NCBI GenBank assembly: GCA_945861845.1
Contig: CAMAWS010000047.1
Span: 1 to 12,006, forward strand
Length of the DNA stretch: 12,006 nucleotides
Reading direction: 5' to 3'
Source: Candidatus Sulfopaludibacter sp. SbA3
Lineage (GTDB): Bacteria > Acidobacteriota > Terriglobia > 20CM-2-55-15
Shown here: positions 725-6,159 of the stretch, in pieces
Layout: every line of letters starts with the position of its first letter
How positions within the stretch are numbered: the stretch's first letter is position 1
Notes under the pieces: generated by a model
The model's database searches: none
What the model was told of the DNA's origin: nothing
What the model saw: only the letters and a program-made list of their open reading frames with translations
Program-made: the position numbers and the translations under genes

Positions 725-3385
725 TCAGAATGTCTTTCCCACCGTAAATTTAATATCCCTGCCTTTCTCACGAATAAAGAAAGGCAGACCTGTAGCAGAC
801 CCGAAATATGTCCGCTCGATCCGCTGGGGATTAAAGGCAAAAATCAATCGGAACGGCTGATTTATCACGGGCATTAAAACCTGGAGCTCCAGGCCCGTGC
901 TTGCACGGATTCCTGAATTCGTGCGGCCCAGGAACCTCGGCCCTTCGCTGCGAACCCGCCCGTCTGGGCCAATGACTTCGCGCTGCAATTGATTTTTCTG
1001 GACGGCCCATGTATTTCCGACGTCCAGGAACGGAGCCAGCGTGATCGTCTGTCCCACAACGGGGATTCGATATTCAAGATTCGCAACGGCCTGCGTGTCG
1101 CCGCCTACGTAAACGATGTCGTCGAACGGACGCTTGACCGTGTTGCCCGTTTCCGGATCAATCGTATCCAGCGAACGCGTGATAAAGGAAATCGGGCTGA
1201 TCGCGCGGAAGTCAAAACCGCGGATGTCGAAGTCGCCGCCAAGGTAGAACCTTTCATAGAACGGAACGCTTGTACTGGAGAAGCCACGCACATGCGAAGC
1301 CATCAACCGCATCGCAAAAATCGGCCGATTGCGGAAACCCAGCGGCTTGAAGAACCGGTACTCAAAGGTTGGCCGGTAGAAGTTCACGTTGCCGCCCAGC
1401 GGACCGCCTGTAAATTCAAACGATGTTGTAACGTTTTGTCCGCCGGTCGGATTGAAGGGATTCTGAATCGTGTTGTACGTATACGTCGGCGTGACTTTGC
1501 GCTGCTTGTACCTGCCGAAGCTGCTGCCGGTCTCCGTTATGAAACTCTCGGCTTCCTGCGTTCTCACATTCGTGAAGTAGTCTCGCGTTGCCTCGTTAAC
1601 GGCACCCGTTTCGGAATTCGTCCACTGATACGTCAGTCCCAACCGGCTCCAGATCTTGAATGGATAGCTGCCATAAAAATTGAAGCCGACACGCTGCTGC
1701 TCGAAGTTCAATCGGTTCTCAAAACCCAGTCCGCTCGGAAGGTTTGATGGGTCCAGGCCGTAATATTCGCGCGCCTGGTCGAATCGATAATTGCTGGCGA
1801 AAACCGAGAAGCCGAGCGACAGCGGACGATCCAGAAAATACGGCTCGGTGAAGCTGAACTGGTAATTTGACTGCCGCGTACCGCCCTGCAAACTGACCGA
1901 CAGATTTTCGCCAAATCCGAGGAAGTTGTTCGTCTGGTAGTCGATGCCAAGAAAGCTCCCACCGATTCCGCTGACGCCACCGTTGAAGCCGATCGAATTT
2001 CGCCCTTTTTCCTTCACTTTGAGCGTTACATCGACCGTGGGTTCGGTCGAATGCGGCTTCACTTCAGCATCCTCTTCCTTGATCTCTTCAAAATATCCAA
2101 GCTGGTTCAGCCGCGCGCGGCTTATGTCCCACAGCGTTGAGCTGAAAATGTTCCCTTCATCCACCATGATTTCGCGGCGGATCACCTTATCGCGCGTTGT
2201 TGTGTTACCCGAAAACGCTATCCTGTTGACCAGGAACTGACGATCTTCATCGACGTTGATCGTCAGGTTCACCAGCTTCTTCTGTTCGTCGAAATCGTGA
2301 ATCGGAACCGGAGTGAAATTGATGTACCCACGGGCGCCGTATAGCTTCTTCAGATTTTCGAAGCCAGTACGAAGCTGGGTTTCGTTGTAGATCTGTCCGG
2401 TCCTGAGTCCCAATACGAACTTGACCTGGTCTTCCGTAAAAGCCTTACTGCCGGTAACTTTTACCTCGCCGACCTGATACTGCTCGTTTTCTTCCACCTT
2501 GATGGTGATGAAGAACCGATCAACTTTTTTCTTCCAGAAAGGAATTGGTATACCCCACGGAAACGGAGTCTTGATGAACGGCAGTGTCCGATACACACTT
2601 GTCTGCTTCGTTTCGATCTCAGGATCTACGATGTTCACGCGAACGTACCCGTTCTCTGCGTAAAGGATACGAATGCGAGTCAGGTCATCCGCAAGTTTCA
2701 GATCGTAGTAGGTGTCCTTTCCGTTGAAGACCGTGAGCGGCCCTGCTTCCTTGACAAGCTTCATCGCCTTCTTGATTTTGCCGTCAGTAAACACCTGGTT
2801 GCCTTCGATTTCGATATCCGCAATCTTGATCTTATCGCCTTCATCCACATTGAATGTGACGATGACGGCGTTCGGCGGGATAGCCTCGGAAGTAACCTCG
2901 ATTTTTGCGTTCTGGCGGCCCTTCTCGGCCAGCATGGACTTTATGACGGTTTCGGCACGGCGGATTCGGGAGGGGTCAAAAGGCGACTCAATGCTCAAGC
3001 CCACCTTTCGCTCCCTGAATTTCTCGAGGATATCTGCCCGGGTAATCGACTTGATCCCTTCGTATTCAATACCCCGGATCAAGGGCTTTTCTTTCACGAC
3101 GAAAGTAACGAGCTTGCCGGTCTTGCCTTCTTCCTCTTCAACGCGAACATCGTCAAAGACCTGCATCCCGTACAGCGCCTTCATGTCGCGCTGGATGGTC
3201 GAAGGATCAAAGGTATCGCCGCGTTTGCTTTGAAGGTTAAACCGGATAGCATCGGACCGAATCCGGCGGTTGCCCGTGACGAGGACATCCTCGATCCGAT
3301 TCGGATTTGGCGTCTGGAGAACGGGCGGTCCCTGAGGTTCCATGCCGCCCAATACCAAAGCCATCAATAGAGAGAAGACCGTCAT
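725..3385 (-). CDS. bamA: Outer-membrane protein assembly factor BamA (Omp85)
   Basis: Core of the BAM machine, which inserts beta-barrel proteins into the outer membrane. The 886-residue product has five POTRA domains, approximately at residues 30-100, 101-184, 186-300, 302-382 and 383-460. A C-terminal 16-strand-type barrel follows from about 463 (SIGFNGGVSGIGGSFLGIDY) to the final Phe 886. The conserved loop-6 motif is present as IRGF (721-724) after FYLGGDFD, and the chain ends KFTVGKTF, the aromatic-terminated beta signal. E. coli BamA is 810 residues. The extra length includes a Pro/aromatic-rich insertion in POTRA3 (about 261-289) and a longer stretch after the RGF motif (about 731-760). 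The start is fixed by GGAGGA 4 nt upstream and by an in-frame stop five codons upstream. The N-terminus MTVFSLLMALVLGG is hydrophobic but lacks the basic residues expected of a signal peptide. skp follows, matching the chaperone-to-acceptor pathway. Confidence 0.95.
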   Translation of the reverse strand: MTVFSLLMALVLGGMEPQGPPVLQTPNPNRIEDVLVTGNRRIRSDAIRFNLQSKRGDTFDPSTIQRDMKALYGMQVFDDVRVEEEEGKTGKLVTFVVKEKPLIRGIEYEGIKSITRADILEKFRERKVGLSIESPFDPSRIRRAETVIKSMLAEKGRQNAKIEVTSEAIPPNAVIVTFNVDEGDKIKIADIEIEGNQVFTDGKIKKAMKLVKEAGPLTVFNGKDTYYDLKLADDLTRIRILYAENGYVRVNIVDPEIETKQTSVYRTLPFIKTPFPWGIPIPFWKKKVDRFFITIKVEENEQYQVGEVKVTGSKAFTEDQVKFVLGLRTGQIYNETQLRTGFENLKKLYGARGYINFTPVPIHDFDEQKKLVNLTINVDEDRQFLVNRIAFSGNTTTRDKVIRREIMVDEGNIFSSTLWDISRARLNQLGYFEEIKEEDAEVKPHSTEPTVDVTLKVKEKGRNSIGFNGGVSGIGGSFLGIDYQTNNFLGFGENLSVSLQGGTRQSNYQFSFTEPYFLDRPLSLGFSVFASNYRFDQAREYYGLDPSNLPSGLGFENRLNFEQQRVGFNFYGSYPFKIWSRLGLTYQWTNSETGAVNEATRDYFTNVRTQEAESFITETGSSFGRYKQRKVTPTYTYNTIQNPFNPTGGQNVTTSFEFTGGPLGGNVNFYRPTFEYRFFKPLGFRNRPIFAMRLMASHVRGFSSTSVPFYERFYLGGDFDIRGFDFRAISPISFITRSLDTIDPETGNTVKRPFDDIVYVGGDTQAVANLEYRIPVVGQTITLAPFLDVGNTWAVQKNQLQREVIGPDGRVRSEGPRFLGRTNSGIRASTGLELQVLMPVINQPFRLIFAFNPQRIERTYFGSATGLPFFIREKGRDIKFTVGKTF

Positions 3386-3389
3386 CCAT

Positions 3390-3395
3390 TCCTCC
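3390..3395 (-). promoter_or_regulatory. Strong Shine-Dalgarno for bamA
   Basis: On the minus strand GGAGGA precedes the bamA ATG by 4 nt. A second ATG lies 4 nt upstream in another frame, immediately after the SD, so the in-frame ATG at 3385 is preferred because only it opens the long frame. Confidence 0.7.
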
Positions 3396-3450
3396 AGTCA
3401 GGGGATTTTACTATAGATAGGAGGCAATTAGACTTAGATTGGTTTTTTTG

Positions 3451-3458
3451 GTTAAACA
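3451..3458. repeat. Candidate 8-bp target-site duplication, left copy
   Basis: GTTAAACA occurs here and again, in the same orientation, at 3633-3640. Each copy directly abuts an end of the inverted-repeat element between them, which is the pattern left by transposition with an 8-bp staggered cut. Confidence 0.6.
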
Positions 3459-3632
3459 GTAACTATTCAGGAGGTGGCAGGTTCAGCTGAGAATTGGAAA
3501 ATGATTAGTGATTAATGATTAATACGTTTCGACAAATCCTCAAATGGCGGAAGCGGTTGAATCGGTCAACCGCAATACTCATTAATCACTAATCATTGTT
3601 CAGTCTTCATCGGTGTGATGCTGAATAGTTGC
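3459..3632. mobile_element. MITE-like non-autonomous transposable element (174 bp)
   Basis: The ends are inverted repeats: gtaactattcag (3459-3470) and ctgaatagttgc (3621-3632), whose complement is gcaactattcag, so 11 of 12 bases match. The element is flanked exactly by the 8-bp direct repeat GTTAAACA. Inside are a perfect 18-bp inverted repeat (3500-3517 and 3580-3597) and, at the centre, an 8-bp stem with 5-nt loop (gcggttga 3553-3560, tcaaccgc 3566-3573), so a single strand could fold into nested hairpins. No transposase frame is present. As family knowledge, IS66 elements typically have termini beginning GTAA and make 8-bp duplications, so an IS66-type transposase is my best guess for its mover. 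That assignment is inference from 4 terminal bases and the repeat length. The alternative is a regulatory palindrome with chance flanking repeats. Confidence 0.6.
3500..3597. repeat. 18-bp perfect inverted repeat with heptad periodicity
   Basis: aatgattagtgattaatg (3500-3517) is the exact reverse complement of 3580-3597, separated by 62 bp that contain the central 8-bp hairpin. The left arm is built of three 7-bp units, (a/g)tgatta, at 3501-3507, 3508-3514 and 3515-3521. The right arm carries two complementary units (3583-3589 and 3590-3596). It is AT-rich, unlike the surrounding genes. Confidence 0.8.
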
Positions 3633-3640
3633 GTTAAACA
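3633..3640. repeat. Candidate 8-bp target-site duplication, right copy
   Basis: GTTAAACA, identical to 3451-3458 and directly adjacent to the right terminal inverted repeat of the MITE-like element. The similarity stops outside the 8 bases (tttg versus ttgc upstream, gt versus ca downstream), as expected for a duplication. Confidence 0.6.
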
Positions 3641-3666
3641 CAGAAAGAATAATGAATGCACGCCGT

Positions 3667-3692
3667 GGGCACGGGGTTGAAGCCCCGCACCC
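3667..3692. repeat. GC-rich hairpin downstream of clpC (REP-like)
   Basis: cgggg (3672-3676) pairs with ccccg (3683-3687) around a 6-nt loop ttgaag. Outside a 2x2 internal loop, ggg (3667-3669) pairs with ccc (3690-3692). It begins 23 bases after the clpC stop, where a transcript end is expected. No U-run follows on the minus strand, so it is not a textbook Rho-independent terminator. It may instead protect the 3' end or be a dispersed palindromic repeat. Confidence 0.45.
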
Positions 3693-3714
3693 CCTGATCA
3701 GGATGAAATCGTGT

Positions 3715-6159
3715 TTACATTGTCAGCGGGACGCCGATTTCTTCGCGGTCGCGGTCGAGTGGCCGATACCAGAGCTGGGCAGCATCCATGTAGACCTCTA
3801 CCTTTGACAGTTCTTTCAGGTTGCCCTGAATCAGCGCCTCGGACAGAGGATCCTCAATGTACCGCTGAATGGCGCGGCGCAATGGGCGGGCGCCATAGTT
3901 CTTGTCCTTGCAAACCTTCTCAAGAATCCACTGCTTGGCTTCTTCAGTGATCGAAACCTCAAGTTGCTTGTGAGCAAGGTTTTCGTTGAGCTGGCTGATC
4001 ATCATTTCGACGATGCGGCCTAAATCGTCGTTGCTCAGTGAATTAAAGATAATGATCTCGTCCAGGCGGTTGATGAACTCGGGGTTGAACAACCGCTTCA
4101 CTTCCGTCATGACCGCGTCTTCCATCTTAAGTGCCGCACTCTCTTCGCTCGGCGCCTGAAAGCCCATGCTCGTGTGCTTGCTCAGGAAGCGAGCACCGAT
4201 ATTCGAGGTCATGATAATGATCGTGTTCTTGAAATCGATCGTATTGCCGAGACCGTCCGTCAGGTGGCCGTCTTCAAAGACCTGCAACAGGATGTTGTAG
4301 ACATCCGGATGGGCCTTCTCAATTTCGTCCAACAGGATGATCGAATATGGGTTTCTCTTCACCCGCTCGGTCAACTGTCCGCCTTCCTCGTATCCAACGT
4401 AACCTGGAGGGGAACCGATCAACTTTGAAACGGAATGTTTCTCCATGAACTCCGACATGTCGAAGCGGATTAGCGCCTTTTCGCTCCCGAACAGGAATTG
4501 GGCGAGGCTTCTGGCCATTTCGGTCTTTCCAACGCCGGTCGGACCAAGGAACAGGAATGAACCCGCCGGGCGGTTCGGTGATTTCAACCCCGCCCGGGAT
4601 CGCCTTATGGCGCGCGCCAAAGCATTGATGGCTCGCTCCTGGCTGACGATCCGACGGTGAAGTTCCTCTTCAATGCGAGACAACCTCTGCATTTCCTCTT
4701 CTTTGATAGAGGTAACCGGAACGCCCGTCCACCGCGACACGACATCTTCAATGTCGCTCTTGGTAACGACGCCCATGCTGGTTGTTTCGCTGATGTTGAA
4801 CTTTTCTCGAACACTCCGCAGGTTCTCGCGCTCGAGCTGCTCCTGGTTCTTGTAATGCTCGGCCTTTTCAAAGTCCTTGCTCGAAATTGCGCTTTCCATC
4901 CGGGCGACGATGAATTTGATCCGCCGCTGTATGTCGGTCATCTCGGAAGGAAGAGTCGCCTGGCGCAACTTCACGCGGGCGCCGGCCTCGTCCAGAAGGT
5001 CAATCGCCTTGTCGGGCAGGAAGCGATCTGGAATGTACCGGTTCGAAAGGTACACGGCAGACTCGATGGCATCGTCCACATAATTGACCATGTGGAATTT
5101 TTCGTAGCGCGGCTTCACTCCCTGAAGAATCCGGACAGATTCGTTCTCACTGGGCGCTCCAACCTTAACAGCCTGGAAACGGCGCTCGAGTGAACGGTCC
5201 TTCTCAATGGACTTGCGATACTCCGCAGGCGTCGTCGCGCCAATGCACTGGATCTCGCCACGCGATAACGCAGGCTTCAAGATATTCGCGGCGTCGAGTG
5301 AACCCTCGGCGGATCCTGCGCCCACCAACGTATGCAACTCATCGATGAATACGACCGTGTTGGGATTGTCGATGAGTTCCTTCATGATCGTCTTCAGACG
5401 TTCTTCAAACTGCCCGCGATACTTCGTTCCGGCAACAATCAGGGACAGGTCGAGAACCAGGATTCGTTTCTCCGCCAGAAACGACGGGACTTCACCGTCA
5501 ACGATTCGTTGCGCCAGTCCTTCGACAATGGCCGTCTTTCCGACGCCCGGATCGCCGATGAGGACAGGATTGTTCTTCGTCCGCCGGCACAGGATTTGAA
5601 TGACGCGATCGATTTCCTGATCCCGGCCGACCAGGGGATCGAGGACACCGTCCATCGCAGCCTGCGTGAGATCTCGCGAAAACTCGCTCAGCAGCGGCGT
5701 TTCCTTCGGCTTGACCAGCGTCTGCCGATCGACCACGGAACGGGCAAGTTCTTCCCTGATTGCGTTCAGGCGCAGCCCGCGCTCGTGAAGAATCTCGGCA
5801 GCAACGCACTTCTCTTCGCGAAGAATTCCGAGCAGGAGATGCTCGGTTCCGATGTGACGATGATTCAGGCGTTCAGCCTCCTCAGCCGCATACGCCAGAA
5901 TGCGCTTGCACTCATTCGAGAGCGGCAAATCAATCGAGGTCGAAACCTTCTCGCGAATGGTTGTCCGTCCCTCAATTTCTTTTCGGATGCTTTCGATCGA
6001 GGAGTGATTACGCAGGAATCGATTCGTCAGGTTCTTGTCTTCCCGGATCAAGCCGAGCAACAGGTGCTCGGTCTCGATGGTGGTGCTTCCGAACTGGCTG
6101 GCTTCATAGCGAGCAAAAAAGATTACCCGCCGTGCTCTTTCAGTATATCTCTCGAACAT
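3715..6159 (-). CDS. clpC: ATP-dependent Clp protease ATP-binding subunit ClpC
   Basis: Hexameric Hsp100 AAA+ unfoldase of the cytoplasm that feeds substrates to ClpP. The 814-residue product opens with the double Clp-N repeat ([12 protein letters not shown] at 1-12; second repeat about 78-145, with [13 protein letters not shown]). D1 AAA+ has Walker A GDPGVGKT (202-209), pore loop KYRGQ (246-250) and Walker B VVFIDE (269-274). A short UVR-type middle domain lies at about 410-450, much shorter than the ClpB middle domain. D2 has Walker A GPTGVGKT (539-546), pore loop GYVGYEEGG (586-594), Walker B IILLDE (607-612) and sensor-2 GARPLRRAI (756-764). MGF (665-667) sits where ClpP-binding loops carry [ILV]-G-[FL], supporting ClpC over ClpB. 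The length is normal for ClpC. The ATG at 6159 begins the conserved N-terminus, although the SD is weak (GAGAG, distant). No ctsR, mcsA or mcsB lies alongside. A candidate promoter upstream suggests independent transcription. Confidence 0.95.

Follow-up and report, generated by a model that had tools for sequence, protein, structure and literature searches.

Organisation of the bamA locus

The window, i.e. the whole stretch of 12,006 nucleotides that was analysed, lies on contig C47 of its own genome (hereafter G000), whose assembly of 496 contigs totals 3.31 Mb and is 81% complete. It carries bamA (725-3385, minus strand; TIGR03303, 532 bits) and a gene for a Clp-family ATPase (3715-6159, minus strand). 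The best Clp models for the latter, ClpB and ClpA, did not reach their cut-offs, and the 25 matches listed included none specific to ClpC, so the 'clpC' of the preliminary description is that reader's own label.

The spacer between the two genes contains an element of 174 bp (3459-3632), enclosed by exact 8-bp duplications GTTAAACA at 3451-3458 and 3633-3640. Reading from 3451 to 3640, the order is GTTAAACA, GTAACTATTCAG ... CTGAATAGTTGC, GTTAAACA. The terminal inverted repeats GTAACTATTCAG (3459-3470) and CTGAATAGTTGC (3621-3632; GCAACTATTCAG when read on the other strand) match at 11 of 12 positions and directly abut the duplications, as originally described; the right repeat has one mismatch to the family end CTGAATAGTTAC. 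We scanned the 12-kb window for ends that were at least 7/12 complementary, lay 60-400 bp apart and were bounded on both sides by identical abutting 8-mers. Five pairs were obtained, the element at 11/12 and four others at 7/12. No open reading frame (ORF) of at least 80 aa overlaps the element, in line with the earlier claim that the 174 bp are non-coding. The nested inverted repeats noted in the interior are real, as it folds as DNA with z = -7.6 relative to shuffles in the window copy and z = -9.1 in the copy on contig C69. A hairpin core built of 7-bp units occupies 3485-3613 (covariance model R1, 60.2 bits, E 2.9e-10; fold z -7.6).

The remainder of the spacer holds a REP-like palindrome between the Clp gene and the element (3663-3692, with GGGGTTGAAGCCCC at 3673-3686). 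Near-copies of this palindrome occur at 10 more places in G000 and at 12 in G001, a genome of the same genus. Within 3350-3760 we found no sigma-70-like sites (shuffles 0.5) and two terminator-like sites (shuffles 0.2), both outside the element. A terminator-like stem with a T-rich tail stands directly past the Clp gene on the minus strand, at 3659-3673 and outside the element; it might part Clp from bamA transcription.

Copies in the genome and an empty site

A search of G000 yielded 12 copies, the window's included. Nine others are full or near-full (C69, C29, C375, C418, C248, C232, C37, C179, C96), C81 is without its left end and C482 is cut at a contig end; the remaining shorter matches correspond to the interior hairpin or to neighbouring REP-like sequence. 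Pairwise identity among ten compared copies was 84-98%, with a subgroup (C418, C248, C232, C37) at 95-98%.

Exact 8-bp duplications flank six of the 12 copies (the window copy, C69, C375, C248, C37 and C96), and no two of them are alike (GTTAAACA, AATTATTG, CAAAATTC, CTAATTTC, AACAATTC, CAAATAAG), that of C96, CAAATAAG, being exact only on the assumption that the element has lost its first four bases. Inexact duplications were seen at C232 (7/8), C418 and C179 (5/8 each) and C29 (4/8), so that three of the ten copies readable on both sides have no clear duplication (4/8 or 5/8). Those of C81, with its left end lost, and C482, at the contig end, were not assessable. The C96 copy (L010 1497-1667) also shows an identical change at both ends (AGCTATTC), as if one end had been made to agree with the other. 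After joining of the insertion sites, an ORF of at least 100 aa spanned the junction in three of ten cases (C69, C375, C96), so not every copy is taken to lie outside genes.

Among 40 relatives, no full-length copy was found at E <= 0.001, and partial matches to the interior occurred in five. G001, the sole same-genus genome in the samples searched, provides an empty site. Both sides of its clp-bamA spacer align to the window at 90% identity, and the spacer is without exactly the element plus one duplication, carrying one GTTAAACC instead. The joined flanks of the window align to G001 without a gap at the insertion site; on the left, similarity is close as far as the insertion point, and on the right the first 25 or so bases are weakly alike but equal in number. 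Both expectations of the preliminary description, further copies with differing 8-bp flanks and an empty site in a close relative, were thus borne out, and its contrary case, a conserved non-mobile region with no second copy, was not observed. Short, non-coding, bounded by inverted repeats and target duplications, and dispersed in copies with one empty site, the sequence at 3459-3632 is a true MITE, ordinary in kind and a clean example, with an embedded hairpin repeat.

About 65 bases adjoining bamA are kept, so the insertion probably left intact any promoter core that lies near the gene. An effect of the MITE on bamA, as a putative promoter change, is possible.

The ends are of the ISBst12 type of IS66

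The preliminary description had likened the GTAA termini and 8-bp duplications to the IS66 family. G000 itself has IS66 transposase matches (PF03050; seven rows) at four places. Ends could be found at two of these. C208 holds a complete element of 2551 bp, whose ends are GTAAGCG and whose 8-bp duplication is AGATCGAC; the element on C152 has GTAAGCGTTCGG ends without a matching duplication. Such classical IS66 elements might in principle have moved the MITE, but the ends at these two of the four places have GTAA only in common with it, and its full 12 bp are carried by a different, ISBst12-type IS66 group. We therefore consider the classical elements improbable movers and rejected them as the partner.

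The 12-mer GTAACTATTCAG matched in 30 of 299 genomes of the class, and more than two matches were found solely in G000 (16) and in G007 (14), which belongs to another genus of the same family. Matches in the other class genomes (one or two each) were taken as chance, with the exception of G004 C239. Matches were also present at G004 C57 (L144), G010 C261 (L146) and in G008 (L147); no second end lay within 400 bp at the examined loci outside G007, and no transposase was recognised by eye among the ORFs listed near the G008 match. On C239 of G004, which is from the same family, CTGAATAGTTAC and the stop codon of an IS66 tnpC (PF03050, NF033517) before it are one base apart, and the right end of this element has 14 bp in common with the MITE consensus. 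A search for its left end found none, and the same-family evidence for common ends is the right end of this one element.

An alignment of 16 relatives led to 516 confirmed loci in GTDB genomes. The best 80 of them, ISBst12-type TnpC loci that span several phyla by their record titles and include one in G004, were retrieved. Allowing up to two mismatches per 12-bp end, we found the right end at 74, the left end at 72 and both at 68 of these best 80 of 516 loci, which are not independent, since some genomes give many (Halomonas sp. Y3 six, the Bathymodiolus japonicus symbiont eight). Exact 8-bp duplications were present at 32 of the same 80. As a control, five shuffled 12-mers each gave 0-2 right ends, 4-7 left ends, no pairs of ends and no duplications at the 80 loci. 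The AT content of the duplications was 77% in the six MITE copies and 77% in the 32 IS copies drawn from these best 80 loci, and the flanks of ten MITE copies have 52-60% GC. Full IS66 elements with the 12-bp ends, which had been named as something to look for, thus exist elsewhere, and the two G000 elements with known ends differ. Judged by its ends and duplications, the IS66 assignment is right and is narrowed to ISBst12-type ends. Having GTAA ends and 8-bp duplications as in this group but no TnpC gene (PF03050) inside, the MITE is not itself an IS.

The group name rests on comparison with ISDge4 from Deinococcus geothermalis (ISBst12 group, IS66 family), not on the sequence of ISBst12 itself. 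The account of ISDge4 in PMC12898284 gives ends GTGACTACTCAGCA / GTAACTGCTCAGCA, the 8-bp direct repeat CCTCGATG and a single transposase ORF of 449 aa, and reports transposition. The ends GTAACTATTCAG of the MITE are close to those given there and both have 8-bp repeats; unlike ISDge4 with its own transposase, the MITE encodes nothing.

A protein-profile search for ISBst12-type tnpC was negative in G000 (81% complete) and in nine of the ten other family genomes searched, G007 included, so that neither G000 nor G007 yielded a partner transposase.

Four ISBst12-type IS66 loci have a gene of about 290 aa with a DruA domain (PF14236) upstream of tnpC (L193 1946-4359; L160 2931-5443; L185 3052-5465; L145 706-2999). 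Both genes lie between the element ends in three of the four loci (2.4-2.5 kb), and the left end of L145 was not found. Duplications bounding the pair are exact over 8 bp in L193, 6/8 in L185 and 4/8 in L160. A literature search found no paper that mentions both 'IS66' and 'DruA'.

Other elements with the same end motif

G007 contains a second MITE, 168 bp long, with the same 12-bp end motif. Five of the ten loci fetched hold complete 168-bp elements and five have one end only; one end of ten has one mismatch to the motif. The 8-bp duplications are exact in three of the five complete elements (AAGTTGAC, CTGATATC, CAAGTATG), one matches at 7/8 and in one the match is shifted by one base. Inside lies another kind of hairpin (fold z -7.8), also with ATTGAGA-like units. 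We further searched 396 genomes of the phylum, a sample outside which G007 falls, for the two exact ends at a spacing of 130-160 bp, a pattern that excludes the window copy with its one end mismatch. The pattern occurred in two of the 396 genomes, G000 and G345, and G345 has a single element of 176 bp with a 7/8 duplication.

A dispersed hairpin repeat in the interior

The core hairpin measures about 110-130 bp and in the window consists of the units TGAGAAT, TGGAAAA, TGATTAG, TGATTAA, TGATTAA and so on, followed by their inverted partner. The interior resembles dispersed hairpins of 7-bp units (TGAGAAT, TGAAAAT, TGATTAG, TGATTAA ...). Covariance model R1 was trained on 12 such hairpins outside the MITE, with no MITE copy included. 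It matched 11 of 11 MITE copies (best strand E 5e-9 to 7e-14) and both elements with a second inverted-repeat frame, GAGCTGACG...ACACCGG, but none of the five G007 MITEs, not the one G345 element, and one of 24 IS loci (E 4e-4).

Across 41 genomes, R1 had matches in 12 among the candidates scored. The row counts are lower bounds, as part of the candidates was scored, and both strands were counted (sites are about half): at least 59 in G000 (with MITE copies), 58 in G001, 53 in G009, 41 in G004, 40 in G008, 24 in G006, 21 in G007 and 3 in G010. The family genomes G002, G003 and G005 gave none among the candidates scored, so the repeat is present in eight of the 11 family genomes searched on that basis. 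Weaker rows, at least 2-7 each, were obtained in G015, G019, G034 and G038. As judged by the model, the MITE interior is an embedded copy of this dispersed heptad hairpin repeat.

The second frame encloses the heptad hairpin at G000:C88:42-273 and G006:C678:7658-7870, and these two, from two genera, are 86% identical over 213 bp. One core type thus occurs within two or more kinds of outer ends; the hairpin may invade such elements or may have been captured a single time. It is conceivable, though rather doubtful, that the heptad hairpin spreads as a palindrome in its own right and lodges in other inverted-repeat elements, giving modular MITEs with one core and different ends, namely IS66-type in G000 and GAGCTGACG...ACACCGG in G000 and G006. 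Among ten MITE copies, three of the 61 base pairs predicted showed compensatory changes and the covariation term was +0.15, which gives no support for selection on structure.

A hairpin outside the MITE lies on C394 of G000, and the orthologous G001:C32:28589-28738 (L274) has a different GC-rich palindrome. With this other palindrome present, the G001 site does not count as a clean empty site and gives no firm evidence on movement of the hairpin by itself.

The many matches of such hairpins at non-MITE sites in G000, G001, G004 and G006-G009 would fit a hairpin that moved by itself, as a palindromic mobile unit of the REP-like or another type, with the IS66-like ends as passive flanks. However, it is the GTAACTATTCAG ends and not the hairpin that border directly on the 8-bp duplications, which largely refutes this explanation. 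The whole 174 bp are missing from the empty site of G001, and the G007 MITE shares the end motif and has duplications although the hairpin model matches its core in none of five elements. We regard the hairpin as a most unlikely mover. The strong folding of the interior might point to a regulatory or RNA element that is conserved and non-mobile in the clp-bamA spacer, but this can practically be dismissed, since the same spacer in G001 is without the 174 bp, copies lie at unrelated sites in G000 and the window has no Rfam match at gathering thresholds.

Origin and mobilisation

The MITE is very probably a non-autonomous element with ISBst12-type IS66 ends that a TnpC of this group, acting in trans, inserted between the Clp gene and bamA. 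This reading builds on the dispersed copies and the variety of their 8-bp duplications, on the empty site, and on ends and a duplication length that agree with those of transposase-bearing elements. An ISBst12-group TnpC supplied in trans would recognise the 12-bp GTAACTATTCAG ends, and insertion would duplicate the 8-bp AT-rich target GTTAAACA. The element may have originated from a dispersed heptad hairpin that became flanked by IS66-type ends, and the partner transposase may have been lost or not assembled. Mobilisation in trans by an ISBst12-type TnpC is putative, because the IS66 ends found in G000 differ and an ISBst12-type transposase was not found in the 81%-complete assembly. Likewise, the likeness between the MITE and its candidate partner is confined to the ends (12 bp, or 14 bp for the G004 element), and its derivation from any one IS therefore stays putative.

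The MITE is like IS-derived bacterial MITEs in being short and gene-less, with IS ends and lineage-specific spread. An example is MITECca01, described in PMC9769881 as derived from an IS982-family element. Unlike MITECca01 as described there, it has IS66/ISBst12 ends, its interior is a dispersed hairpin repeat without recognised IS remains, and its parental IS was not found in the assembly. Its core is a palindrome dispersed among related genomes, as in REP and BIME sequences, but with about 110-130 bp of 7-bp units it falls outside the 20-40 bp stated for REPs in PMC3733652. Our literature search met no IS66-derived MITE.

End sequence, length of the duplications and composition of the target together place this bacterial MITE in the ISBst12-type IS66 group, and the results provide a 12-bp signature that can be used to seek such MITEs elsewhere. 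They also show that the dispersed hairpin repeat of this family can ride inside a transposable element, which would be one route for the spread of intergenic palindromes.
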